18,556 bases of DNA from Amoebophrya sp. AT5.2 (lineage: Eukaryota; Sar; Dinophyceae; Syndiniales; Amoebophryaceae). The translations under genes were made by a program, and so were the position numbers. The stretch spans positions 1 through 18,556 of the forward strand of contig RXOD01004761.1 in assembly GCA_005223375.1 (NCBI GenBank). Reading direction: 5' to 3'. Below, piece by piece: positions 3-16,649 of this stretch (position 1 is its first letter; every line of letters starts with the position of its first letter). A model generated the notes under the pieces. The model saw only the letters and a list, made by a program, of their open reading frames with translations, made no database searches and had not been told where the DNA came from.

Positions 3-1670
3 ACAAATTTCCTCTGCATACTGCTGATCTCCTGCGACTTGCGGGCGGCCGACCTGGAGCACGCACTGGTGGTGATCACCAAGCTGTACGACGAGTGCCT
101 CCGCCACGAAGCGCTCGCGACGGCGCACGAGGACGAGGAGGCGGAAAGCATCGACCCCGACAGCAGCCACCAGGCGCGGATGGGGCGCAACAACATCCTG
201 CGCGAGGTTTTGGAGTTGGAGCGCGTGGTCTTCGCGCCACAGATCCTGAAGCTGGTGCTGCAGATAATCGAGGTCGCGGGGAACGAGAGTCCCACGTTCG
301 GCTGCGTGTACCCGCACTCGCTGCTGCAGAACGTGCCCCCCGCCCGCGTCGCGGGCAACCCCGTGCTGGAACGGGAAGAGCTGCGGCTGAAGGGCGAAAC
401 GGAGGAAGACGAGGCGATGCCGCACCTGGGAGTTCTGTCCGAGGCAGACGAAAGAGCACGGGCGGAGAGGCAGCGCGTTTTCGACCGAGCAGAAAACGAG
501 TTCGCGAAGGAAGCGGCAGGTGGAGGTGGGGAAGCAGAAGGAGTTGCGGAAGATCCTGGAATCGTCTCGGAGAAGGAACAGCTGAGGAAAATTGCGCTGG
601 GAACGGTAGCCGGCCTCATGGGGAAAGGGAAGAAGAAGGGAAAGGGCATAAAAGGCAATTTACCCCTGCTAAAGGGAATGAAGAAAGGAGAGGCGAAAAA
701 AGGAAAGGGAATGAAGGGAAAAGGCAAGGCTGCAGCGCTAAAGGGCAAAAAGAAAGGAAAAGGCGATGCGAGCCCGAAGGGCGGCAAAGCAGCTAAAGCA
801 GGACCAGCTAGTCCCTCGCCGAGTCCTCCTCCTCCGCGCCAGAAGATTACCTTTACTGGGCTCGTGCGCGAGCGCCACAGGGTTCTTCAGGAGAGCGGCG
901 CGGGCGCAGGCTCTCCTGACGGCAAGCCGGACACGGCGGGCGCGGCCGGGGGCAAAGGCAAGAAGCAGCACAACGTGCAGGTGAACGTGGTAAGGGGCAA
1001 TCTGGTGGAAGGCCACCATCGCATGGAAGCGCCACAGGACCAAGAAGCGGGTGAAGAGGCCGCGGACCCCGTCCCACCTGCGCCTCCTGTGGCTGCAGAG
1101 CAGAGCTTCGACCAGGAGGGGAATCCGATTCCGCCCGACGCCGAGGGGGCTGGTGCAGAATGGGACGATGCTGCTGGTGCGGAACAAGGAGAAGAAGGAG
1201 TTGTAGAGGGAGGCCAAAATGTTTTGGGGCACATTCAGGACTTTGTAAGTGGAGTTGTGGATAAGGTCCATTCGGCGGTTAGGGGCGATGAGGATGTTGC
1301 GGACTTTGACGAAGTCGACGGCGCAGCTGACGTTGGCGCCGCCTCGGGGGAATCTTCACTATCCGACGAGGACCAGTCCCTCGCCCAAGTTGAGCGGCAG
1401 AACAAACTCGGGCTCGCGGCCGCCCTACTGAACGCTGCCGACGAAGGTGACGAGGGTGACGTCGAATTGAATCTCGCAGATCCCCACTATATCAGCCCGC
1501 AGCAGATCAGCGAGAGGCCCTTTGCCAAGTGGACGCCGTGGAACTACCTGTTTTCCACGCACTGCAGTCTCCAGCTGTTCAGCGAGGACGACTACTACGC
1601 ACGGCACCTGGAGTACATTTTCGGCGTCCGGCAGAATTTAACCGCAAAGCACCTCGCGGCGATGAGTTAA
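3..1670 (+). CDS. Giant multi-PDZ protein, exon 1 (5' partial, hypothetical)
   Basis: The frame is open from the left edge, so the true start lies upstream; there is no ATG start here. It begins with a helical segment (about 3-400). An acidic/Glu-rich stretch follows, then a strongly basic Lys/Gly tract (about 616-800, repeated KGKG/KKGKG), a VNVVRGNL box (981-1004), a GVVD...SAV...DE box (1251-1319) and an aromatic region with WTP...LQLFS...YYAR (1530-1622). The last three recur in the exon at 5650-16649, which ties the two together. The frame stops at 1668-1670, and this TAA lies inside an inserted element (1667-2112). Deleting that element with one ATGAG copy fuses the frame in phase to the one at 2113, giving ...LAAMSRHWTYID... 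across the joint. It is therefore best read as an exon whose apparent stop is intronic. No family is recognised. If the element is not spliced, this would be a truncated protein. Confidence 0.75.
   Translation, partial: TNFLCILLISCDLRAADLEHALVVITKLYDECLRHEALATAHEDEEAESIDPDSSHQARMGRNNILREVLELERVVFAPQILKLVLQIIEVAGNESPTFGCVYPHSLLQNVPPARVAGNPVLEREELRLKGETEEDEAMPHLGVLSEADERARAERQRVFDRAENEFAKEAAGGGGEAEGVAEDPGIVSEKEQLRKIALGTVAGLMGKGKKKGKGIKGNLPLLKGMKKGEAKKGKGMKGKGKAAALKGKKKGKGDASPKGGKAAKAGPASPSPSPPPPRQKITFTGLVRERHRVLQESGAGAGSPDGKPDTAGAAGGKGKKQHNVQVNVVRGNLVEGHHRMEAPQDQEAGEEAADPVPPAPPVAAEQSFDQEGNPIPPDAEGAGAEWDDAAGAEQGEEGVVEGGQNVLGHIQDFVSGVVDKVHSAVRGDEDVADFDEVDGAADVGAASGESSLSDEDQSLAQVERQNKLGLAAALLNAADEGDEGDVELNLADPHYISPQQISERPFAKWTPWNYLFSTHCSLQLFSEDDYYARHLEYIFGVRQNLTAKHLAAMS
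1662..1666 (+). repeat. Left ATGAG direct repeat (putative target-site duplication)
   Basis: ATGAG abuts the left terminal inverted repeat and matches 2113-2117 abutting the right one. It encodes part of the Met-Ser at the exon joint. Five bases alone could match by chance; position at both ends of the inverted repeats is what makes it meaningful. Confidence 0.65.
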
Positions 1671-1690
1671 GGGTTGAAAAAATTCAGGAC
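1667..1690 (+). repeat. Left terminal inverted repeat of the inserted element
   Basis: Pairs with 2089-2112 at 19 of 24 positions. Four of the five mismatches are transitions occurring as two adjacent pairs, as in diverged repeat ends. The apparent stop TAA of the upstream frame (1668-1670) is part of this repeat. Confidence 0.7.
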
Positions 1691-1701
1691 CTACAACTAA
1701 G

Positions 1702-1776
1702 TACATCGACGCGTACGTGAAGCGGATCACGGAAGATCCGATCTTCCGTGATCCGCTTCACGTACGCGTCGATGTA
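1702..1776. repeat. Near-perfect 37-bp palindrome (1-nt spacer)
   Basis: Arms 1702-1738 and 1740-1776 are exact reverse complements around a single C at 1739. The structure could extrude as a cruciform or fold as a long RNA hairpin. The left arm repeats exon sequence 2131-2163 in direct orientation. The right arm, extended to 1783, is its inverse. It is therefore made from neighbouring coding DNA, not from the terminal repeats of the element. It may be genuine fold-back duplication or a library/assembly artefact. Confidence 0.9.
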
Positions 1777-1783
1777 GGTCCAG
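1744..1783 (-). repeat. Inverted 40-nt copy of downstream exon 2124-2163
   Basis: These 40 bases are the exact reverse complement of 2124-2163, the coding stretch for WTYIDAYVKRITE just after the insertion point. A direct 33-nt copy lies at 1702-1734. The same short coding block is therefore present three times within about 460 nt, in two orientations. Confidence 0.9.
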
Positions 1784-2088
1784 GTCTAGGCTTGCCGTGT
1801 CTGGGTCACAAGAACACTCGTAGGAGATTGCAGCTCCCCGCCCTCCCTTAAGGGACGAGGTCTGGACTCGGCAGTAGGACAAGAATCCGACTGCTACGCC
1901 CCCACGGCCCATCGGAGAAGGCTGCGGCGTTCCACCTGTGACGTGCTGGGTCCCACCTCAGCAAATTGCAGCCATAGGAAGCTGTTAACGACCGTTCTCA
2001 GTCGAATATCACTGCGTGATAACCATTACTGATCAGAAGGAAGGTGACAGACGGGAATTCCTAACGGCGACGCCTAAACCTGAAGCAC

Positions 2089-2112
2089 GACCTGGGTTTT
2101 TTCAACCTCTAA
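2089..2112 (-). repeat. Right terminal inverted repeat of the inserted element
   Basis: Inverted partner of 1667-1690. On the plus strand it reads as a T-rich stretch (TTTTTTCAACC at 2097-2107), which would double as a polypyrimidine tract before the 3' exon. Confidence 0.7.
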
Positions 2113-2117
2113 ATGAG
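2113..2117 (+). repeat. Right ATGAG direct repeat (putative target-site duplication)
   Basis: This is the second copy of ATGAG, directly after the right terminal inverted repeat. It also provides the only ATG at the head of the following frame (weak context, T at -3), so that ATG is probably an internal Met codon rather than a start. Confidence 0.65.
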
Positions 2118-5100
2118 CAGACACTGGACCTACATCGACGCGTACGTGAAGCGGATCACGGAAAGGCGGCGCACCGTCACCGTCAACATGCGCACGGGGC
2201 GGCTGTCGTTCGAGCACCGCAACAAAACCATGGAGCGGCAGGAGGCGCTGTTCTTCGCGCAATGGCGGTGGCGGCGGTCGAGGGTTCTGGATCTGGCGTA
2301 CGCCCTGCTGCCGCGGATCATTCCATGGACGAGCGCAGCCATGAACGTCCCGCCGTCGCCGGTCCCGGGCGAAGTCGCAGCGCTGCTCACCAGCCTGGGA
2401 AACCTGGCGAAGGGACACGCGCGGACACACGTACAAGCCGCGGCGGAGCGAAAGAGCCAAAGAACTGGAGGTGGCCAAGAACAAGGCAGCAATTTTAACG
2501 ACGCGCAGGACCTGGACGAAGCCGCGGGCCAACATCCGTTTCTGCCGCCGCTGCTGGCGAGCGCAAAAACGCTGAAATCGTACGGGATGACGGGGTGGCG
2601 GCAGACGGTCGAAGCGGACGTCGCCGAAAAGATGCTGAACTACACCCTGGAGGACGCAGGCTCGGCCATTCGCGATCTTTTCGGATTCACGTTGGACTAC
2701 GAGAACTTTCCGAAAGTCGTCGTGACGCAGGTCGAAAAGTACTCCACCCTCCAGCAGCCGAAGTCCGACAGCAGTAAAAAAGTGAAACCCCCGAAGACGG
2801 AGGCGTACAAAGCTGGCGTTGCGGTGGGCGACATGCTGATCTCGGTTTGCGGCGCGCGCATCACCGATTTGGAACACTGGTCCGGCAACACCGCCGACGA
2901 CGCACTGCTACGCAGGGCGCTGCGACGGCGGCCGGCGAAGGAGGTCGGATTCGCTTTTTTGAGGGAGAAGTACTTCAGCCGCTACCTGCAGCTGGTTGCG
3001 GACGAGAAAACCGCGGATTTGGGGCTGAAAACCGAGAAGTGCAAGATCAAGTCCGTCGCGGCCGGGGGCTGGGCAAAGCTGTGCGGACTCCGCAAAGGCG
3101 ACTACATCGTCGTCGTGAACGACATATTCGCGGAGAAGGCTCGGGTCGTCGCGCGCGACAAGATAGCCGCCCCTGCCGCCACCGGCGCGCAACAAGTAGA
3201 GGAGGTGAAGGTCACCGAAATCGACGTCTTGTGCGAGCGGAACGGGCCGCGGCCGCTGCACATGCTGGTGCGGCGCGACGCCGGCGCCTTCGACGAGGGG
3301 TCGCGACAGCGCGCCGAGGATGGGTCCCGGTTCCGCACCCTGCCCGCGCGGTGGACGAAACGGATCGTCGAATTGAACACGGGACTAAACATCGCGAAGC
3401 TGGCCGTGAAGACCCGCGAGCGCGAGCAGCGTCGCTACCTCGATATCCCCCGCGCGAAGGCACTGGGACTAAAATTGCGGGTCGTCGACGACGCCGGGGG
3501 TGAACGGGGGGCGCGGGGCGGCGGTGAACGGAGTGACCAGCTGCAAAGGAAAATAAACCGCCCGCGCAGTTGGGCAGGGAGCTTGACTCTAGAGAGAAAT
3601 CTCCTCGGGCGGGTGAACAGGAACGCGTTGCGGCAGTGGTTTCTGGACCGGCGGGCATCCAGCATGGACGAGGTGATGGTGAAGATTCTCGCTACCACTA
3701 CTCCAAACAGCACTAAAAACTCGAAGTTCGCGCCGAGCGGTTCTTCGTCCCACCTCGAGGTTCGCACGGTTCTGAAGCGAATCGCCGACCACCGGGACAG
3801 CTACGAAGCGTGGAAACGGACAAAACTCTCATCCACCTCTTCTGCTTCCGAAACGGAGAACCAAAGCCAAACCGAAACCACGACTTCTGCGGGAGGAACT
3901 ACAAGCACCGTGGTCGACGACGACATGATGAGCGACGGCACCATCGATGAGATGGCACTGCAAAAACACTCGTTTTTCTACCGCTTGAGCGACGCTAAGT
4001 TCTACGTGGCCCACCCGCGGGCGACCGACTTCGACGCGGCGAATTCTGTCGCCACGACCGTTGAGCGCGTTCCGCTACCTGCCGACCGTGGCACGACGAA
4101 GGTGCTGCCACCGGTGAATCTCGGCTACCTCGACCGCGGGCCGCATGAGCAGAAGGTCGTGAACGCGGAGCGGCAGCACATGAAGAAAAAAATGGACGAG
4201 ATGGAGCTGCAGTACATGCGATCCAAAAAGCAGCGCATCAAGGACATCGTCGCGGAAGAACAGGCGACGGACGAGCAAACGAAGAAAGTGGACCGCTACG
4301 TGGCGAAGATACGCGAGTTTCTGCAGCAGACTGGGCTGCGGAACAGCGAAGTCGAGTTCGTGGCGGTGAATCTTTGGAAGACAGTGGTCTTGTACAGCGA
4401 AAAACTGCGGAGGTTCGATCGGAAACTCGCGAAAAATGCAGACAAGGACAAGCGGGACACGCTTTTACGGGACGCTTTCAGCGGTGGGGGGGGTGGACGC
4501 GGTACTAGCGCTATGGGCGGTGTTGAGCGGGGTGCACTTGGTGCACAACCAGGTGAGGGAGCAAATCCTGTTACTGCAGCCCCTCCGCCCGATCTTGCCG
4601 CCCGTCCGTTTCTCTTCTCCACAGACGCCGAGGAAGGGGAGGAGGCGGAAGAAGAAGAAGAAGGAGAAGACCAGGACGACGACGAAGCCGGTTCTGATTT
4701 AGACGAACAAGATGCGGATTCGAATGCTGAGAACGAGAGTCCACGTTCGGCGGGAGAAAATGTTGACGACCAGGACGGCACAAACCGTCGTGTCCGTTTC
4801 GACGACGAGAACGCCCGTGACAGTGACGGAGATTCACCACAAGAAGATGCCCGCGGGCGCGCCAGATCTAGGTCAAAATCGCGCGGAGCAAAAGCGAGCA
4901 AAAACCGGCGCAAGGCCAAGCTTAGTGGCCCCCCCCCAAAACCCCCGCCACGGCCGCCTCTCCAAAACTTTCCGCCCCACGCCGAGGAGTTTTTTCGCAT
5001 CGTTCAGCCTTCGGTGCGCGCGTGTACGCAAATGCTCTCCCTCCATTTCCCTGCCGACCCCGAAACGCAAACGGCTGCCGAGCTTCGCTTGCTGAAGAAA

Positions 5101-5538
5101 TGCACGGACTTCTGCGTCGATCTCGACGCTTCTTTAGAGGCGAGCATGGAATCGCTGGAAGCTGACGCGCGGCGGGACTTGGCCGCCATCGAGGAGGAGA
5201 GCCAGGCAAACGCGAAAATCTGGGAGTATTTCACCCACGCCGCGGCGACGGAAGCGAAAGAAAAAATGGAGGCAAAGTTGAAGGAGCTGGAGACGCAAAA
5301 GAAACAAACGAAACTGCGACTCTTGAAAAAGCGGTACAATCTGGGAGGCGAGCTCGGCGAGCGGACCGACGAAGAGCTGGGGACAATGGATTTGGAAGTG
5401 GATGACATCGTGGTGAACGTGGCGCTGGCATGCCGAGCGCCCTTTTTCGAAGTGGCTACAGTGGCTACGGAACCGAAAAAACCGACGGAGGACGGGGACG
5501 GCAAGAATGCTCCTGAACAACAAAAATCTGGTGTATAA
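2113..5538 (+). CDS. Giant multi-PDZ protein, exon 2 (first PDZ-like pair)
   Basis: An uninterrupted frame of 1,141 codons. Residues 1-75 are helical and rich in Trp/Arg. Residues 157-163 hold a YGMTGW box. Residues ~187-275 form a first PDZ-like domain (FGF loop at 190-192, VVVTQV strand, AGVAVGDML). Residues ~278-388 form a second (ADLGL, GLRKGDYIVVVND). Residues 675-790 are charged and likely coiled coil. Residues 840-935 are acidic and then Arg/Ser/Lys-rich (RARSRSKSRG), likely disordered and possibly a nuclear-localisation-like patch. Residues 939-950 are proline-rich, and 985-1080 are a second coiled coil. The ATG at 2113 has weak context and lies in the target duplication of the upstream element, so a continuation from the frame at 3-1667 is preferred. 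The 3' end can splice at 5531 into the next exon; otherwise it stops at 5536-5538. Role is inferred as scaffold; no ortholog is recognised. Confidence 0.82.
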   Translation: MSRHWTYIDAYVKRITERRRTVTVNMRTGRLSFEHRNKTMERQEALFFAQWRWRRSRVLDLAYALLPRIIPWTSAAMNVPPSPVPGEVAALLTSLGNLAKGHARTHVQAAAERKSQRTGGGQEQGSNFNDAQDLDEAAGQHPFLPPLLASAKTLKSYGMTGWRQTVEADVAEKMLNYTLEDAGSAIRDLFGFTLDYENFPKVVVTQVEKYSTLQQPKSDSSKKVKPPKTEAYKAGVAVGDMLISVCGARITDLEHWSGNTADDALLRRALRRRPAKEVGFAFLREKYFSRYLQLVADEKTADLGLKTEKCKIKSVAAGGWAKLCGLRKGDYIVVVNDIFAEKARVVARDKIAAPAATGAQQVEEVKVTEIDVLCERNGPRPLHMLVRRDAGAFDEGSRQRAEDGSRFRTLPARWTKRIVELNTGLNIAKLAVKTREREQRRYLDIPRAKALGLKLRVVDDAGGERGARGGGERSDQLQRKINRPRSWAGSLTLERNLLGRVNRNALRQWFLDRRASSMDEVMVKILATTTPNSTKNSKFAPSGSSSHLEVRTVLKRIADHRDSYEAWKRTKLSSTSSASETENQSQTETTTSAGGTTSTVVDDDMMSDGTIDEMALQKHSFFYRLSDAKFYVAHPRATDFDAANSVATTVERVPLPADRGTTKVLPPVNLGYLDRGPHEQKVVNAERQHMKKKMDEMELQYMRSKKQRIKDIVAEEQATDEQTKKVDRYVAKIREFLQQTGLRNSEVEFVAVNLWKTVVLYSEKLRRFDRKLAKNADKDKRDTLLRDAFSGGGGGRGTSAMGGVERGALGAQPGEGANPVTAAPPPDLAARPFLFSTDAEEGEEAEEEEEGEDQDDDEAGSDLDEQDADSNAENESPRSAGENVDDQDGTNRRVRFDDENARDSDGDSPQEDARGRARSRSKSRGAKASKNRRKAKLSGPPPKPPPRPPLQNFPPHAEEFFRIVQPSVRACTQMLSLHFPADPETQTAAELRLLKKCTDFCVDLDASLEASMESLEADARRDLAAIEEESQANAKIWEYFTHAAATEAKEKMEAKLKELETQKKQTKLRLLKKRYNLGGELGERTDEELGTMDLEVDDIVVNVALACRAPFFEVATVATEPKKPTEDGDGKNAPEQQKSGV
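2575..3279 (+). other. PDZ-tandem module 1 (YGM box + two PDZ-like domains)
   Basis: YGMTGW is followed by a helix, then FGFTL...FPKVVVTQV...AGVAVGDMLISVCG (PDZ-like, canonical carboxylate-loop-type FGF). Next come a linker strand FAFLREKYFSRYLQL and a second PDZ-like fold ending GLRKGDYIVVVND...PLHMLVRR. The order recurs at 11604-12668 and 13923-15110. Assignment is by eye from PDZ strand/loop pattern. Confidence 0.7.
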
Positions 5539-5649
5539 AACTAGTACCAATGCAGGAGCTATGGCTAGTGTTCCACCGCTTTTCCATGATGTTCATGTTG
5601 CAGTTCATCTAGTTTGTGCGAACACAATTTCAATACATTATACATACAG
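5531..5649 (+). other. Putative 119-nt GT-AG intron between giant-gene exons
   Basis: Starts GTGTAT and ends CATACAG. The upstream exon ends in phase 1 and the downstream exon supplies the other two codon bases, so splicing joins ...EQQKS to APRTSASAKED in frame. The segment is AT-richer than its flanks and carries stops in both neighbouring frames (5536-5538 and 5610-5612). There is no strong pyrimidine tract. The alternative is a very short intergenic gap with a new start at ATG 5688, whose context (A at -3, G at +4) is good. Confidence 0.55.
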
Positions 5650-8600
5650 CGCCGCGCACCAGCGCCAGTGCCAAAGAGGACAGGACGATGGCGGCGCGGG
5701 CCCTGATTTTCGGCGCTGGCGGCATGGCGAGAGCTGATGCGGTGGACGCCGTGTGGACTCCGGACCGGTGTTGGCGCAGTGTTGGGTACTGCGACGCGCT
5801 CGAACTCTTCTCGGCGAAATCGTACTACGTGCGGCGGCGGAAGCGGCGCTTCACCCCCGCGCTGGAGGCGTTTCAGGAGGCTGGCCAGGAGGTCTCGGCC
5901 TTCAGCTTCATCCCGCCAAGATCGCGGGAGGTGGTCACCCAGTGCACGCTGTTCGTGCTCTTCGCGACGCTGCAGCCGCTACTGAACTCAGCTCTCATTC
6001 TCGAAGAGACGGACGGACTTGCTTCATCTTCGGGGAGCACCGATCGGGGAGGAGGAGCATCGGCGCCGGAGGCTGGAGCAGCTGGTGTAGGAGGCAAAAA
6101 AAATGAGCCGAGTGTCTGCTGGAACACGAAGGCGCTTCGGCGATCTCCCATCGCGAAGTCTGTGCTGTGGGAGTGCTTTCTGCTGGCTTCGGCCATTGTT
6201 CGCACGAGTTGGGGGGCCGGCCGCGCGGAGGACGGCCGCGGTGGAAGCAACGGGCTCAAGGACCTCCTCTCGCGGTGGGAGCAGCACCCCCCGGGCGTGT
6301 TCCTTCCGATCGTTGGCGCGGGGGACGAGAGAGGCATTTTCGGCCGGCTCGCGGACGCCGCCACCAACGCCGCGCAGGGCGTCGTCGATTTTCTCGGCGG
6401 CGTTTTCTCCGCCATTTACGGCGCGGACGGCGCAGACAACCTGGACGAAGCGCTGGACCCCAGCGACATCCGCGGCATCAGCCTGGCGGAGATGCGGAGG
6501 GACCCTGACAAGTTTCGGCTCTCGGGGGACGGGGTCTCCGGGCTGTTGCCGGAGACGCCGCAGCACGTGCGGAGCCGAAACGCGCTGGCAAGGTTCCGCA
6601 TCTGGAACCTGCTGGCCAACTTCTTCGTGGTGCCGGGGTTGGACCGAAGGTGCAAACTCCTGATTGCCGAGGACATGCTGGCCATGCTCAGCCTGGACCG
6701 CGCGGTTTTTCCAAGAGGCACGCGGCTCGTCGTGGGCAGGGGATTCCTGAACGTGCTGCTGGACACGCTGGAGGAGCCGGAATTCTTCCTCGACGAAATC
6801 GACTGGGACGCGCCGCTGCGGGGAGGTGGAGAAAAAGATGGGACGAAGGGTGCTGGAGGAGGGGGCGATCTAGAGACAGGAGCCAGCGTGCTGCAGAAGA
6901 TGAAGGATCGCCATCGCGCCCGCGCCGCGGCGACGGCGAAAGCGAAGGCCAGACACCGGGCTGCTGCGGAAAACGAAAAGCGGAAGGAGGTGGTGCGGCA
7001 ATACGCAAACACCCCCACTGCGGACGGCGTGTTCCAGCGAGAAATTTCCGCGCTGATCGGTGCCGACCCCGACGAGGCGCTCGCAACCGCCGACAAGCTC
7101 CAGACGGCCCTCCTGCACCTGTGCACCTGGTTCTTCCGCGCCTTCCCCCGCGGCGCCCACCAGAAGCTGTACCACCTTGCCTTCCGCATGCTGTTCTTCA
7201 GCCGGGTCGAGCCGTCGTTCCGCCGGAAGCAGCAGTGCTTGTCCCTGATTCGCATCCTGCTGCTCGCGGGCTACGTGCCGCTCACGACCGATAGCGACCG
7301 TTCCTGGTTCGCGCGCCACGCCACCCTGCAGCACGTCAGCCTGAAAGCGAACTACTTCTCCTTCGAGGCGTTCGTGCCGAAGCTGCTGCTGGTGTGGGGC
7401 GAGGTGAAGTGGCTGGAGCTGTTCGCAGACACGCTGGCAATCACCGCGGTGTCGAGTGAGTACATGCTGGAGGGCGTTGGGGGCGGAAAGGACGTCTACC
7501 GGATCGGCACCACCGCAGCGAAAAACGCGCAAACCCGCGCCGACTCCGGCCTGTGGGTGTACGTGACGGCGCAGGAACTCTTCCGCGTCGTGTTCCACGG
7601 GCTGTCGACGATCGCGATGGAGATAGCGGAGTGCGTGCGGCACGCGAAACAACACGCGCACGAGGAGTTCAAGTTTCAGCACGACCCGGAGCTCGCGGGG
7701 AACCAGCGGGCCGCGGCGAGAAGAGACAGACGCGCGAGAGCGGCAACAGCAGCGCCGTTAAAAGCGAAAACCGCACCCGCCGCGTCTGGTGGTGGAACAG
7801 GAGGCAGTAAACCGAATAAAGCCGCGCCGCCTAAAATAAACGACCCGAACGCTAAGGCGAGCGCCACCTACCCTCTGCTGCTGGACGAGGAGGTTCTGCG
7901 CCGGTTTCTCGATTGCCTGTACCTGAGTTCGTGCGTCGCGGGCGCGTGGTACCGAAATGCGAAGTGCAGCGAAGACGAGCTCGAGGCCTTCTGCGTCGCG
8001 ATTTCGGCGTATGTGTACGAAGTAGAGCTCGACTTCACAGCCGACGACTGGGGCAAGCTGTTCGCGCCGTGCGTGACCACGAAGGAAATCGGGATTCTGG
8101 GCGTGAAGAAAGGAGACTTTTTGCTGCCGACGGGGTACGAGAACGCGGGATTTTTCTCCCGCATGATCGGCTTCGAGAAAGCGTGTCGCCGGGCCTTTTC
8201 CCTCAAAATGGTCCGCGTGGGGGGAGGCGGGGTTACGGTTGGGGGGCTGAACGCTTGGGGTGGTGGTCGTGGAGGAGGTGGCGGTGCTAAAAATGCTAAA
8301 AACGCGGCATCAGGGGGCGCTGGTGGTGGTGCGGGGGCAGTTGATGAAACCGACACTGAGAGACGAGCGCGGCAGGACCACGAGAAGGAAGCTGCGGTGT
8401 TGGAGCGATACAATCGTACGTACCGCGAGCGCGAGGCTCTGGCGAGAGCGAATCTCGACGCGGCGAAGGAGCAGGCGCAAAGACGCCTGGCTGGAAAAGC
8501 CACGGAGACCGCGGGCGGTCTAGTTGGCGTGGGAGCCTTTGGGGGCGTGTCCACCACTTCCGTCGACGAGCTGCCCCTCTCCGCGCTCCACAGCACCGAC

Positions 8601-11600
8601 AGCAACCCCTATCCGGTGGGTTTACTCGCGGGCGGCGAGACCGACGTAATTTCCGCGTTCGATAACATAAGCGATCGGCCCGAACTCGAAGCGATGGCCC
8701 CGAACGGGTCCTTCGAGGATACGCAGTTGGTGTTCGGCTACGAGAGCAGCCTGCAGCTGAGCAAGGCCCAGCGCGTGTTCAACGTCCCTGACGAGTGCTG
8801 GCAGATCCAGCAAGCGGAAGTCGCTGCGGCAAACGAAGACGCGGAACGCCAGCGGCGGGGCGCGCGACTCCGCAGGAAGGCGCCGAAGGTTGGCTTTGAT
8901 TTGCAGCGACCTGCTGGCTTGCGAGTGGACGGGGTGGGATCTTCTGGAGTTGGGGGAGGAGGAGGTGGGGGTCGTGGAGGTGGGGGTGCTGGACCACAGG
9001 AAGTTGGACCCCAGGAAGTTGGACCACCTCCAGGAGGACCTGGACTTGAACCAGGGGAACGTGGCGGGCCCGAAGCTGAAGCTGGACCGCCAAAACTGTA
9101 CTACAGCGAGCCTCCATCCTCTTGGTACGAGGAAGACGGGCCGCAACGCGAACGCCTCCTGCGACGAACAGCGCATACACATCAACGGCAGCCTGTTATT
9201 CTCTTCGCCCCAGAAGACGAGGCCGTGGCGAATACTGACGACAACCAGAAGCAAGGAGCTCCGGCGGAAGCCGCAGTCGAGGCTGCCGGGGACGAACAAC
9301 AGAAAAAGCAGGCAGACGGGGCGGTTGGTTCCGCCGATCAAGTTCAGGACAAGGACGGCGCCCTTCCGGAACAAGAGCTGCACGCTGCCGAAGATCATGA
9401 CGCAGAGGAGATTGAGCTCGCAATGGAATTCGCGAGACAGAATCGGGATCTCGATGCCGAGGCCGAGGAGTTCGACATGGCAATGAAACAAGGCGTGAAA
9501 GCAGAGAGACGGAAATTTGTCCAGGTCCTCGGCGGCGACCGCATCGCCACAAACGCATCCGCAGAGAAGCAGCTCTTGGAAGGGGGAATCGTCGGGGTCG
9601 CCGGTGGAGGCTTTGCCACAGGAGGTCGAGTAACGACCGACGCCTCTGCTACAGGATCAAGTGCAGACCCGGCCGGAGCTTCTGCGAGGATCGCTGGCGG
9701 CACGCAGGGCAGTAGTTTCCTCGTGCTCAGCTTCTACCACCCGAAACACCTCTACACGGGCTCGCCCATGGACGACTTCTGGCCCGTCGCGCTCAAGACT
9801 GCATCCGAGGCGATACGCCTACCCTCCCTTCTCGCGGCCGAAGAACAACAGACTGCTGAGGAAGCTGCGGAACATCAAGCTAAGGCCTCTACTGGAGATT
9901 CATCCGACAGCGACGACACCTCCTCCAACACCATCGCGGAATTTACGGAGGAGCACGAGAGTGCGGGGTTTCGGGCGGCGCAGCGCTACTTTTACCGGTA
10001 CGAGCACGCGCTGATCTGGCGGCCGCTGTCGCACCACATCTCGCCCGTACCTTGGGAGGACGAGTACGCGCTGCACAAGGTCGGTTTGCGCAAGTTCGCG
10101 CAGCTGACCCGCGCCTTCGCGGAGGCCGGGCACCTGCGGGGGCGGCGGAGCGAAAAACTGCTCGAAATCGAGGGCGGCGCGGCGCTCGCGCAGTTCGCGG
10201 ACACACGATCGGGCGATATGGAGGTGGCGGACGTGGAGGACGAGGCAGAAGGTGACGGGTCATTGGGGGAGGACGGTGTCCTCCGACAAAGCGAGGCCGA
10301 CCGGGAGGCGGATGAAGGATTCGCGGATCTGCTCGACGCGACGGCGAGACTGATCGCGAAAGATGGCAATAAAACGCGTTTTCAAAATAATGATCCTACG
10401 AACCGCCGCCGCATGGTTCGGTTTGCGCCCGGCACAGGCCTGTTCTCCCCGACCACGGCGGGGCCCAGCAGCCCGCCGTCGATCGTGGTGGTGAACTTGA
10501 TGCACCTTTGCCCGGACATGGATACTTCGAAGAGCCGGCGCAGCAACAGACTCGCGGTGCTGCGCAGAGCATTCACGGCTGCGGTGATGGTGGCGTCGTA
10601 CAAGATCGAGGCGGACCTTCGGCGCGCGAACTGGTGCACCCGCAACGTCTGGCGCCACTGGATCGTGCCCGACGTCGGGGACAACTTCTTCTACGAGGAC
10701 GAGGTCGCAAGACAAGCGGCGGAAGAGGCGCAGGCCGCCGACAGAGCGGTAGACGATCTGCATAAACTGGGGGTGGAGAAGAAGCGCAAGCACAAGAAGA
10801 AGGCGGGTAAAAGTGGACTGACACTGAGGGAGCTGCTTGCCGTTTCTCCAGTAAGAGGGACGAACAAGAAGATGAACAAAACAACGACATCTTCGAGCAG
10901 TGCTGCCTCCAGCCAAGTTGGCTTCCGATTGGAAAGCCTGGTGACAGACAGCACCCTCGCAGCTGCGGCTCCGCAGGCAGTTGCGGCTGCGCTGCGGCTG
11001 GTGTTGCGGAACGGACGCTCGCTGGTGCTGAAGTCGATCAACGCCGAGGATCTGGACAGAGAGCGCTTCTCGGGCTACTTTTGCTTCCGGCTAAGCCGCC
11101 CGCTGCACGAGCAGGGCCTGCTAGAAAGCAAAACGGATGGGGAAGTACAAGTAGAAGTAGGAGTAGAAGGAGCAGGCACCGGCGAAGGTACAACTACTAC
11201 TAAATCAAAATCTAAAGCTGCCAGGGATAGAGCGCTCTCAGACGCACGGGGCGGACTTCAGACGCTCGGGGTTGTGGGAGCAGCTAGTGCTAGACGAGCA
11301 GAGGGCGAACAGGACTTCAGCGATATGTCAGAAGATTCCGATGACGGAGACGACGACAAAGATGATACGACCTACGACTCCGGTTTCGCGAAGGCAAAAA
11401 GTCTGCAGAAACGTCCAAAGGTCAAGGAGGTCGCTCTGGCGGCCGATGAGTTCAACATGGTGAAAACAGCAAAACAACACCTCCCGGAAGACGAGTTTGC
11501 ACTTGACAGCGACGACGGGACGGATTCGCTCTCGAAAGTGAAGTATCCCCCATACCAGCTTGCCCACATGGCGCACGTCGTGGTCCAGCGCGCGCCTGGC

Positions 11601-14600
11601 ACTCTGAAGCGGTATGGAATGATGTCGTTTCAACTAGAAGTGGGGCACGGCTTTCGTCCTGCGGATGTGAAGAGGCTCGCGAGAAGGTTTGCGGCTGCGT
11701 GGCAGGCAAGGGCGGAGAAGATGATTGCAGCCGTTTCCAGGTGGATGCTGAAAAACGAAAATCCGCCCAACAGAATGCTTGACTCCCCCGACGACGACGA
11801 GGACGAGGAGGCGCCGGAGGTGGGAGGACCAGATTTTGAATTTGCGGAAGATGACAACGCCGCGTGGGAGCAGCTGAAGAGCCAGCTTCGGAACGCGGTG
11901 GGGCTCGGCCAACTCCGGCTGGACTGGTCCCGTTTCCCGCGAGTGGAAGTGACGCAGAGCAGCTTCCCCGCGCCGAAGTCGAAGTCCGACCCCAAACCTC
12001 CGGTCGCGGGGGACGTCCTGCTGCTCGTCGCCAACCAAAGAATCACGAAGCTGACCAGCTGGCTCCCACTGGCGCGCGGCGGAAGTGCGCCGCCCCTCCC
12101 GGGAGGCAATGATGTGCTGCCTCCTCCGGTAGCGGCGGCCCTGGTCGAGCGGTGCGAATTCGAGCCGGAGGCAGCACTCCTCTACTTCCTCGCCGAGGCC
12201 GTCCTTACGTCGCAAGAGTCTGGCGCAAAACCGGCCACACACCGTCGCCAGAAAGTCCAGCTGCCAACGCTTGTCTTCCTCCAAGAAAAGTTCAACGCGC
12301 GATTCGCGCAGGTGGGCTACAGCCAGGAAGCAGAAGCGGGGGGGAAATATGCCGCTCTCGGGCTCGACGCTGAAGAAGGTCTCGAGTTCGGCGGCAAGCG
12401 CCTCAAAATTACGACTGCTCCACAGAAGCCGTCTTGGGCGCGGCACGTTGGCATCAAGAGGCGCGACGAGATACTCGTGGTGAACGATCTAAGTTGCCTG
12501 GAGCCGGAGGACCCCGAAGTACGCAGACGCGTGCTCAGGTACTTCGGCGCGGCGGAACCGAGACGAGCGGAACCTGTTGAGGCGCTGCAAGATTCTCCTG
12601 CCACCGCGCCGGTCGAGTCCGAAGATGAAGTCGAAGCGAAGCCGCTGTACCTGCTACTGACGCGGCTCAGCGAGCCCTTTCCCCTGAAGGTGCGGCAGAG
12701 GGAGGCTGCTATCGACCGCAGTCTAAAGTTCGACGTCTCGGCGTTGACAAAGATCGTGGACGAGCGCGTACTGCGCGGAACCGGTGGGCCGCGAAGAACT
12801 TCTAGAGGCAAGACGGGTGCTGATGGTGGTCGGCATGTGGATGTTGAAAAAAATCCTGCGCCAAAACGGGACGCACGCAGTCCTACTCAGGCAAAGGGGG
12901 AATCCGAGGCGGCACAAAAAGCAAAAGAAAGACGCGAAAGCCCGAGCGCAAAACCAAAAGCTGGCGCGGCCTTTCTCTACGCACCTGAAGACCGCAAAGC
13001 AGGGCAGGAGGCGGACGATGGGGAACATCAAGAGGCGGCAGAGGAGTTGTCTGATGAGTCTGTAACGATCGACGATGAGGACCACCACGACGCACCGACC
13101 GAATCGGACGAAGACGTCGAGCCTCTCGCTCCTCTTCCCCAGGATAATGTCGGCGCCGCGCTACAACCAGGCCGCGGTCCTTTCGGCGTGCCCCCCCCAT
13201 CTGGTGCGCGGACACCCCCACCACCACCGCCACCAAAACCCCCCAAGCCTCCGCTTCCGTGGTACCAGCAGCCCAACTGGATCGAGGCGAAGAACTGCCG
13301 CACGCTGTATCTGCTCGACCACCTGAAACGGCTGAACCGGGACCAGAAGGTGCTTGAGCAGCTGCAGGCCCTTGCAGACCGCTGGCGTGCGTGGGAAGAG
13401 GCCCAGGAACAAAAAGAGCTCGTCGGCATGATGCTCGCGGACCTCGAAGCGAAGCGTTGCAACGCCGTGTGGCGGATTGAGGACCGCAACCGCAGCAGCA
13501 TGTACAAGCAGGACGTGTTGTCCCACTTCGCCCTGAACGGACGGGACATTTTCATCGACGACCTGATCCGGAAGCGGCGCAAGCGGGAGGCGCAGCTGGG
13601 CGTCGTCCGCCCGCCGCCGCCCAAGACGTGGCTCGTGGACACCGGCGGCGACCTCGGCTTCCCACCGAGATTGGCGGAGAAACTGAGCGACGCCGAAAAC
13701 GCAGCCGACGCCGAGAACGCACCAGACGACGAAGAGGACCTTTCGGAGCTCACCGCGACGGATGAGCTGGAGGACCCGGACATGACCGGCATGGAGCGGG
13801 CCTTTCACCACGTGGCGGTCGCCGAGCGGGGGAGGGATTTCTTCCGCCGGCAGCAGAGGAAGACTTCCTCGCGGTACTACATGGTGGAGGAGCTGGGGTT
13901 GCTCGGGCCATCTCAGTACCAAAGGTACGGACTGGTCGGGTGGCGCGACTGGAAGCTGGACGAGGCCGCGTTGAAGATCGCGGTGCGGAAGCTGAAAGCG
14001 ATGAAACGCAACGTCGAGGCGAGGAAGCGGCAAGCCCGCATAGCACGTCGAGCGAAGGGTAAAGAGAAGCCAGGCCGGAGGGGCGCGGTTGGAGCTTCGG
14101 ATAGTGACGGAGACGATGAGGTGGACACCCAGCCGCGAACAATGAAGCGCAAGGGGAAGTACAAAGGCGGGGGCAAAATAAAGGGCGGCAAACCGAAGGA
14201 GCCCAAGGTGAGTCCAAAGGCGAAGGCAAAAGGAAAAGGCCGGGCGAAACTACAACGCGCCGTGCGTAGCATCAAGGAAGGATCACACGCCGCGGAGAAT
14301 GATACTGATAGCGACGAGACCACGAGCAGCTACCGCACATCTTCAAGCGGCGACGACATCGAGCTCCACTCGCGCGACCCGCTTTTCTCCGCGTTCGGTT
14401 TCGCGCTCAGTTGGGCGGAGTTTCCAAGAGTCGTCGTGACGCAGGTGCGAGAAAATTCCCTCGCGGCACAGCACGGCCTCTCCAGGAATGATCGGCTCTT
14501 GCGGATTCTAGACGTGCCGGTGTCGCAGATTCCCGTGAAGGCGGTGGACCTCGATTCCTTCGACCTCACCAGCGTACAGGAGGCCATCCTCCTGCGCGCC

Positions 14601-16649
14601 GCGCGCATGCTGGAGGTCCCAGATTCTGTCGTGCTGGGTGCAGCTGGGGGCGAGCAGGGGGGCTCGTCGCCAACTTCCGGTGAGCAGCGTGCTGGGGAGG
14701 CGGGAGGAGACCTTCCTCTCGCGGCCGCTGCCGCTTTAGCACATGATAACGTTCGCAATCCGCTCGCGAAAGGCAGCGGCTTTGGCTTTGTCTTCCTGAC
14801 CGAGGCCTTCCACGACTCGTACTTGCAGCTTTCCGCGTCGAGTTTTGCGGAGTTTTCCTGGGGCCTCCAAGTGGACGCGACGCCGTCGATAAAAGTGCGG
14901 CTGGCCAGAGTCGAGAAGCGGAGCTGGGCGGCGCTGCACACACTCAAAAGGGGCGACTCCGTGCTTGCGATCAACGACAAGTTCTTCTACAAGACGTCGG
15001 TGCCGGACGACGGCAGTGGAATTTACGTGGCCACGCGCGGCCATGACTTCCGCCTGAAGGGCAACAGGCCGGGCGTAGACCAACTGGAGCAGTTTTTCGT
15101 GCTGCCGGGCAGTGCTGGCGCTGACCTACTGGGAACGCCTGTGGACGGCGTGGATCTAGACGGTCCGGATAAGGCTCGTTCTGATGAAACTAGTAATGTG
15201 GAGGCGGAAGATGTTGAGCACGACACGCTACACCAGATTCTAGTGGAGCGAATAGCGAGCGGACGACAGAATCAATCGCTGGCGACCGCGATTGAGACTC
15301 GCGTCAAATGCGATTTTCCGGCGAACTGGATGCGGTTCGAGCGGCGCCGGTTGGGCCTGCCTCTCGAGGCCTCCTCTTCCGAAGAATCGGACGCCAAAGT
15401 GCTCAGCGCGTCCGTGTCCGAGGAGGAGCCGGTGAAGAAGAAAGGCAAGGGCAAAAGACGACGTCCGAAAAAGAAGCCGGCGCCGCGACTGTCTTTCATA
15501 CGACGAATGTTGAGAAAGTTGGGCTTGCTCTACCCGGAACCGCGGCTCGAGGGAGAAAGAACGTCGTCGTCCTCCTCTTCCAGCAGCAGGAGCGGCGCTT
15601 CGGCTACTTCAACATTGGCGAGTATGAAGATCCTGGAAGAGCGCTCCCCAAGAACATTCAAGAAGGGGGGCTCGATCGAGCTGCTGCAAGCTCCCTTTCT
15701 GTTCATGCCCGAGGCACGACAAGCCCGACCACCTGTTGTCGTCGATGAACCGCCTGTATCCCCGAAAAGCAAGAACAAAAGTAGAAAAACTACACCAGCG
15801 AATGCGAAGGACGAGGACCACCACCGCGGTCCTCGCAGAAAAAGAAGTCCATCTCCGGGGCCTAGAACGGTGGTGATTGGGGAGGAGGTTGGTCCGGTGC
15901 AGCAGGAGGAGGACTTCTTGATGGGGGCGTTTGACGGGGGCGGGCAGGAGGGCGACGGGTTGGACCAGACCCTGGACCAACTGGACGCGCCGCAGCCGCC
16001 CGCGGTGCCGGCGGCCTATGATTTCGACTACAACTACTTCGTGCTGAAGGACGACCCGCGGCACGCCGCGTGGGAGTTCGACCGGGTCGACAGGCTGGAA
16101 ACGGAAAAAATCAAACGCGTGTTCCAGCCCCTGTATCGTCCGACCAGAGGAGGTGCCGACGACGAGAATTGGGAACTAGATGACGAGCTGCAGGCGATGG
16201 TGGAGGCGGAGGAGGAAAGGGAAGAAGCGTCGAAAGAAGTGGAAGTCGTCGTGAAGACAGCAAAAGGAAAGAACTCGAGGGATGCAGAAGTAGTTGATGC
16301 CGTCGTGAAAGCAGAAAAAGGAAAAAAGGAGATGCTTACCGTCGTCAAGACAGAAAAAGGTAAACACTCGAAGGAAAAGAAGGGAAAAGGCAAACGAAAA
16401 GCAGGAGGCGATCAGGACGAACAAGAAACCGTCGTGAAGACGGTGCGTGGTCGAAAAGCAGGAGGCGATCAGGACGAACAAGAAACCGTCGTGAAGACGG
16501 TGCGTGGTAAAAAGGCCAGAAGCAAGAGTAGGAACTCTTCTGGAAGAGAGGGGAGCTCAGGCAGAAAAAAAGCAAAACCAAAGCAAGTGGTAAAGGTAAA
16601 CGTGGTTCGAGGCAATTTGACTGCGGGACACAGTCCTTCGCCTAAATAA
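5650..16649 (+). CDS. Giant multi-PDZ protein, 3' exon (two further PDZ-like pairs)
   Basis: A single open frame of about 3,666 codons without introns; if it is a separate gene, the start is ATG 5688. In order: a WTP...LELFS...YYVR box (5754-5852); a hydrophobic helix (about 5940-6000); a GVVD...DE box (6378-6458); a large helical region (to about 8200); a Gly-rich spacer and a Glu/Arg coiled coil (about 8240-8510); Gly/Pro repeats (8940-9070); acidic linkers; and a helical block with NVWRHWIVP (about 10650). PDZ-tandem module 2 lies at 11604-12668. A polyproline stretch follows (about 13185-13260), then a helical region, module 3 (13923-15110), basic KGK tracts, and a C-terminal tail of VVKT..GK repeats ending in VNVVRGNL. 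The stop is TAA at 16647. No catalytic motif is visible. Many modular binding domains suggest a scaffold; the function is unknown. Confidence 0.85.
8991..9020 (+). repeat. 15-nt tandem repeat (GPQEV x2) in Gly/Pro-rich coding tract
   Basis: Two 15-nt units, 8991-9005 and 9006-9020, differ at one base and encode GPQEV twice. They sit within a glycine run and a GPPPGGPG stretch. In-frame coding repeat, likely slippage-generated in a disordered linker. Confidence 0.9.
11604..12668 (+). other. PDZ-tandem module 2
   Basis: LKRYGMMSF box, helix, acidic insert, then LGQLRLDWSRFPRVEVTQ...VAGDVLLLVANQRIT (PDZ-like). A linker with FLQEKFNARFAQV follows, then GGKRLKITT...VGIKRRDEILVVND...PLYLLLTRL. The FPRVEVTQ strand lines up with FPKVVVTQ in module 1 and FPRVVVTQ in module 3. 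It is longer than module 1 because of two inserts, one acidic and one Pro/Lys-rich. Confidence 0.68.
13185..13260 (+). other. Polyproline tract in the giant protein
   Basis: Encodes PPPSGARTPPPPPPPKPPKPP just before WYQQPNW. Such runs are typical ligands for SH3, WW, EVH1 or profilin-type domains. Binding is not shown by the sequence. Confidence 0.85.
13923..15110 (+). other. PDZ-tandem module 3
   Basis: RYGLVGW box, basic helix and Lys-rich insert, then FGFALSWAEFPRVVVTQ...HGLSRNDRLLRILD (PDZ-like, FGF loop intact). FVFLTEAFHDSYLQL follows, then WGLQVDATPSIKVRLARVE...LKRGDSVLAINDKFFY...EQFFVLPG. Closest in pattern to module 1. Confidence 0.72.
16395..16508 (+). repeat. Perfect 57-bp tandem duplication in the C-terminal tail
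   Basis: Units 16395-16451 and 16452-16508 are identical and in frame (19 codons each, containing KAGGDQDEQETVVKTVRG). Upstream are diverged copies of the core (VVKTAKGK, VVKAEKGK, VVKTEKGK). Identity at synonymous positions indicates a recent duplication. Confidence 0.95.

Follow-up and report, generated by a model that had tools for sequence, protein, structure and literature searches.

The question raised by this locus is how one protein can be encoded across a segment whose first bases already stop the reading frame. In the window, as the whole analysed stretch of 18,556 nt is called here, the upstream coding exon of a host gene (3–1666; the gene start lies before the window) belongs to an open frame at 3–1670, which ends at a TAA in the first bases of an element of 446 bp (1667–2112). 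The downstream coding exon (2118–5538) contains a PDZ domain (PDZ_6, E 8.2e-8) and lies in a second open frame, 2113–5538, that joins the first one in phase after removal of 451 nt. The element is bordered by ATGAG at 1662–1666 and at 2113–2117, the left and right copies of a 5-bp target duplication, and carries just inside of them the left terminal inverted repeat TTAAGGGTTGAAAAAATTCAGG (1667–1688) and the right terminal inverted repeat CCTGGGTTTTTTCAACCTCTAA (2091–2112). Between these repeats a palindrome (1702–1776) and the core shared with the sister copies (1775–2090) are located, all features being given on the plus strand. Over the 22-nt core of the two ends 18 Watson-Crick pairs, three G-U pairs and one mismatch were counted by eye. 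An earlier note on this DNA had placed the duplications and the ends at these positions, had described 24-nt inverted ends with 19 of 24 positions pairing and had proposed that the two frames fuse upon loss of 451 nt, whereas a strict GT-AG cut would shift the frame. All of this could be reproduced: the fusion follows from the ORFs 3–1670 and 2113–5538, and a cut from the GT at 1666 to the AG at 2117 takes out 452 nt, whereby the frame is lost. We assign a probability of about 0.87 to the reading that the element is an introner, i.e. a MITE-like, non-autonomous DNA transposon which inserted into a coding exon and now behaves as a non-canonical intron.

The element of the window is confirmed as one copy of a repeated element, far above chance. 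A search of the window's own assembly (50.7 Mb in 2759 contigs) revealed 39 further places which match its interior with 72–87% identity, this number being a lower bound since 40 of 156 candidates were scored. With up to three mismatches allowed, the left-end pattern gave 304 genome matches compared to a single one for the reversed-pattern control, and the right-end pattern gave 411 matches compared to 23, which leaves, after subtraction of the controls, ~300 left ends and ~390 right ends. The earlier note had made its reading dependent on further copies of these ends, and they are evidently present in large number. One hundred loci were examined, comprising the window, the 39 sisters found by interior homology and 60 left-end places taken from 79 additional ones among the 100 listed of the 304; the 19 places left out were situated near contig ends (7) or had one mismatch (12), and the sample covers the minor part of the 304 left ends. 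Both ends were present in 92 of the 100 loci, while eight loci without both ends were dropped (L030, L040, L042, L064, L078, L082, L096 and L100), four of which (L030, L078, L096 and L100) run off the contig end. The 92 elements have a median length of 381 nt (range 268–527 nt) and their interiors all fall into one homology group upon interior clustering, the sole inverted interior match of at least 60 nt being the window's own palindrome. No long element with these ends was seen by eye among the 100 of 304 left and 100 of 411 right ends listed. Two sets of copies are used in the following: the 92-copy set, oriented by interior homology where possible and with an end slack of up to three bases, and an 86-copy set oriented by the ends alone, in which at least L011 and L042 are reversed.

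With corrected orientation and the slack of up to three bases, a perfect 5-bp duplication was found in 60 of 92 copies and a duplication matching in four of five bases in another 25. Without end slack the values were 55 and 24 of 92, and with strict ends in the 86-copy set 55 and 21 of 86, compared to a chance level from swapped pairs of 0.3% and 1.9%, respectively. Base matching drops sharply beyond the five duplicated bases, and the duplicated 5-mer varies among the copies, so that the sisters with 5-bp duplications of their own which the earlier note had anticipated are indeed found in the genome. The family thereby combines terminal inverted repeats with a target duplication of fixed length, the structure of MITEs and cut-and-paste transposons. 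Together with the many sisters at other gene positions, these features support the introner-type origin suggested in the earlier note.

In order to follow the reading frame across the insertion sites, the sense and frame of each flank were called by a codon model trained on two window ORFs, which assigned 83–92% of the frames per flank correctly on held-out 150-nt coding pieces. An initially considered test based on ORF length was dropped in favor of this model, since long open frames occur in every phase of this GC-rich genome and the test was consequently uninformative. Frames could be tested at 90 of the 92 loci (L047 and L054 were dropped for short flanks); the training ORF covers the right flank of the window's own copy, and one locus of the 90 is therefore not independent. 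With 150-nt flanks, removal of the element plus one copy of the duplication brings sense-oriented flanks into phase at 77 of 90 loci, compared to 76 at 120 nt and 72 at 210 nt; without end slack 69, 70 and 65 of 90 are in phase at 120, 150 and 210 nt, respectively. The 13 loci not in phase are divided into six shifted, five mixed and two antisense cases. With respect to the held-out accuracy of 0.83–0.92 per flank, this miss rate is about the classifier's own error, and the data would be compatible with all copies being in phase, although real exceptions among the 13 are possible. Read-through is no option, because 91 of 92 elements are stopped in all three frames and the element plus duplication is divisible by three in only 28 of 92. 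The insertion phase is uneven: among 67 in-phase copies, 32 insertions follow codon position 2, 14 follow position 1 and 21 fall between two codons.

For genes with known relatives, the flanks were joined by script and the resulting products were compared with related proteins. All five conserved proteins tested align without a gap across the junction with the best solved relative, namely MCC-beta (L053), an arsenite-methyltransferase-like protein (L087), Der/EngA (L104), a ClC channel (L101), whose junction lies inside GGVLFAVEE, and NTF2 (L013). For NTF2 the junction is gap-free in comparison to two solved NTF2s and also in the seven best-scoring relatives, including that of Amoebophrya A25 at 82%. 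The weaker junction alignments are gapped elsewhere, the nearest gap being about six residues away from the junction. A Pfam scan of ten junction products, three of which are genes already contained in the junction alignments, unveiled a best domain stretch spanning the junction in nine cases, that of TruD (L041) crossing it by four residues only; in L070 the domain stretch stops before the junction. The window's own junction is without comparative proof, since none of the 7993 candidates scored, which had 0.55–1.75 times the length of its downstream exon (1141 aa), proved to be a relative; in Pfam the host gene matches PDZ domains only. Following the host gene, an uninterrupted frame of 11 kb (5613–16649, 3678 aa) with weak PDZ matches was observed, which has the motif FP[RK]VVVTQV in common with the host gene and is perhaps a paralogous neighbour.

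Another explanation is that plain transposon insertions have turned the affected genes into pseudogenes, so that no introns exist at all. The structural marks of MITEs and the stops in all three frames of nearly every element would fit such insertions, yet the interrupted core genes include NTF2 and MCC-beta, and for these two, the ones checked of the five, no second, uninterrupted copy was found in the assembly. The orientation bias described below likewise argues against broken genes, as do, to a lesser extent, the frames open over at least 20 codons on each side in all 67 in-phase copies, an observation that is weak alone as the genome is GC-rich. We regard this explanation as extremely improbable. 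No full-length NTF2 protein of this strain was present among the matches listed in the protein search.

The direct repeat in which the intron ends are situated allows six different cuts with one and the same product. Nevertheless, a GT-AG cut giving the exact product is available in none of the 60 copies with a perfect duplication, and GC-AG or AT-AC is possible in three of them; the GT...AG borders with frame-exact product that characterize a spliceosomal intron are thus not observed. A removal in exact frame without GT-AG, as the earlier note had proposed for the element of the window, is supported over many copies of the family.

For comparison, ordinary introns of the same genome were delimited in two HSP90-family genes (L118 and L119). 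All ten introns have GT-AG solutions with a fitting protein, nine of them being among the options given by the script and the tenth being found by eye. Six of the junctions were judged from what we take to be the HSP90 family sequence. The other four belong to the first gene and are corroborated by an Amoebophrya protein deduced from a transcript (MMETSP0795, taxid 88552, Amoebophrya sp.), to which the product of the joined exons is 100% identical over 689 aa. All ten introns start with GTA, and nine of them precede an exon starting with GT, so that most are located between short direct repeats, one of which is GTAC. The HSP90 introns indicate that the genome has ordinary GT-AG splicing, an option which the element copies lack. 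A search for snRNAs in the genome revealed U6 with its ACAGAGA box; U1 was not found, but U2 was likewise missed by this search.

A canonical mechanism could still apply if the elements were ordinary GT-AG introns with splice sites a few bases off the ends, at the cost of small gains or losses of codons. A frame-preserving GT..AG pair within −9 to +14 nt of the ends does exist in 23 of 55 perfect copies, and the element itself offers an internal GT (TTAAGG/GTTGAA). GT..AG pairs near the ends are, however, missing altogether in 14 of the 55 copies and are all frame-breaking in 18, and the use of the internal GT retains TTAAGG, whose TAA is read in frame when the insertion follows codon position 2. 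This phase is the most frequent one (32 of 67 in-phase copies) and is also that of the window copy. Furthermore, no residue is gained or lost at the junction in any of the five conserved proteins. With the GT..AG pairs in 23 of 55 copies, inexact canonical splicing can be dismissed for single copies only if their junction is pinned down by a conserved protein; for the family we consider it very unlikely.

The orientation of the elements is strongly biased. At the 90 testable loci (150-nt flanks) 83 copies are sense with respect to both flanks, two are antisense to both and five are mixed, which suggests that the removal takes place at the level of RNA. The bias is difficult to reconcile with an excision from DNA before expression, in analogy to the internal eliminated sequences of ciliates, by which the element would never appear in RNA. 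Precise DNA excision has indeed a like anatomy, with inverted ends, a short direct repeat and one copy of the repeat being kept, yet excision by symmetric ends should ignore the orientation of the gene. Dinoflagellates are not known to have a DNA-elimination system. In A25 and A120 such introns were moreover mapped by RNA-seq, according to the accessible sections of PMC7789003. Overall, DNA excision is left with a slim chance.

Under the introner reading, the element would insert into an Amoebophrya coding exon with formation of the 5-bp target duplication, and the element would subsequently be removed from the pre-mRNA together with one copy of the duplication. The two RNA ends would pair, for the window copy at 21 of 22 positions with G-U counted, and this pairing would juxtapose the two identical 5-nt repeats. 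Cuts at equivalent points within the repeats, made by a modified spliceosome or by other machinery, would rebuild the original exon whatever dinucleotides are found there, and the removal would thus be independent of GT-AG, unlike that of the ten HSP90 introns. The right terminal repeat may in addition serve as a pyrimidine tract, as suggested in the earlier note. RNA folding predicts pairing of 15 or more of the 22 end positions for 84 of 86 copies, and the fold of the window copy has a z of −10.9, a value which is inflated by the palindrome; as inverted ends pair by construction, such pairing is no independent proof of a role in RNA. Arm mismatches in 79 copies comprise 174 G-U compared to 91 A-C, mostly at fixed positions of the family consensus. 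The G-U excess was set aside as proof of RNA pairing, because these fixed positions dominate.

The palindrome, which had been missed in the earlier note, follows the left end and consists of two 37-bp arms (1702–1738 and 1740–1776) originating from copies of the downstream exon: 1702–1734 is a direct copy of 2131–2163, and 1744–1783 is an inverted copy of 2124–2163. It is absent from 32 aligned sisters, and the longest inner palindrome in the other copies of the 86-copy set measures 16 nt. Exact copies of 25–43 nt of the own flanking exon were, however, also identified near one end of L065, L076 and L084, so that including the window four of 92 elements carry own-exon copies, inverted or direct, near a terminal repeat. 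A 20-nt word common to the element and its own flank was thereby found in 4 of 92 elements, compared to 1 of 8372 pairs of an element with another locus. These exon copies look like filler DNA formed by template switching in gap repair, as after cut-and-paste transposition; the palindrome, and this one case alone, may be an assembly artefact.

Elements of comparable anatomy are known from other systems. Huff et al. are said to have described TIR/TSD introners of Micromonas, Aureococcus and Symbiodinium in 2016. The present family is, by its sequence features, of the same kind as the non-canonical introners of Amoebophrya A25 and A120, and this kind itself was already known: the consulted part of Farhat et al. 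2021 (PMC7789003) reports for both strains non-canonical introns which occur in multiple copies and have inverted ends as well as 3–5-nt repeats. As described there, the A25 introners resemble the present family in being repeated, in having inverted ends capable of forming a hairpin and in lacking fixed splice dinucleotides. According to section 11 of that paper, A25 introns start with TTA plus two purines and finish with G, which is also true for TTAAG...CAGG; the repetition at many intron positions corresponds to the ~300 left and ~390 right ends, and the direct repeats of 5 bp fall within the 3–5 nt of A25. The inverted ends of 22 nt are slightly longer than the 8–20 nt given for A25, and the median length of 381 nt exceeds the reported average of 120 nt for the A25 non-canonical introns. 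The non-GT-AG borders are deduced here from DNA and protein, whereas the same source gives RNA-seq support for A25. A U1 snRNA is described as not detectable in A25; in the present genome neither U1 nor U2 was found by the search, while U6 was. The published Amoebophrya families are strain-specific, and the likeness to A25 refers to described features. Among the literature matches listed, in which subscription papers are largely missing, no report of such introns in another Amoebophrya strain was noticed.

The TIR/TSD introners in the available text of Gozashti et al. 2022 (PMC9860276) likewise have the anatomy of non-autonomous DNA transposons, and in most of their families insertion and splicing keep the mRNA length, as would be the case here. 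They use GT/GC/GA...AG borders, however, whereas a GT-AG cut with exact product was found here in 0 of 60 copies. The nonconventional introns of euglenids and diplonemids, as far as the accessible passages of PMC4770533 and PMC12621601 describe them, likewise have variable borders and short direct repeats, pair end to end and coexist with GT-AG introns. Euglenid introns mostly carry CAG/CTG near their ends (+4..+6 and −8..−6) according to the sections available of PMC4770533, a motif for which the present family has no place: depending on which of the six equivalent registers is chosen, +4..+6 reads NNT, NTT, TTA, TAA, AAG or AGG. Furthermore, the pairing in the present family comes from a 22-bp transposon end common to the copies, unlike in the euglenid and diplonemid introns.

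The 15-mer which we take to be the dinoflagellate spliced-leader motif has 34 exact copies in the genome compared to none for the control. The HSP90 of this genome is 94% identical to that of A120 and 92% identical to that of A25. A relation to Amoebophrya, at which the earlier note had hinted, is corroborated by the HSP90 that is 100% identical to the transcript-derived Amoebophrya protein and by ends which fit the A25 rule in the accessible part of PMC7789003. The GC content of the fetched loci, a non-random sample, is 55.8%; a review, in the part available, gives 55.9% for AT5.2, 51.2% for A120 and 47.8% for A25, although a table in the consulted portion of another paper gives an AT content of 54.5 for AT5. 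According to the accessible text of two papers, 99.98% of the AT5 introns are GT-AG, and a paper from 2025 infers, in the sections available, that such odd introns occur in some members of the genus only. The EukProt protein g15190.t1 is 100% identical to the NTF2 of this genome but lacks exon 1, its start being the first ATG that is in frame beyond the introner. Similar truncations may affect further gene models that meet an introner. Whether the genome belongs to AT5 or a near-identical strain, the canonical picture being partly an artefact of gene prediction and introners being wider in the genus, is in our estimate evenly balanced.

If the genome is that of AT5, the view of odd introns as confined within the genus needs revision. 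Mobile-element introns can escape gene-finding software, and because the public NTF2 model has lost an exon at an introner, claims of canonical-only Amoebophrya strains merit a recheck. The removal of introns without GT-AG is an open problem in Amoebophrya as well as in euglenids, for which the family offers a clean test set, with near-identical ends, 5-bp duplications, NTF2 and MCC-beta as reporters and a GT-AG control within the same genome.
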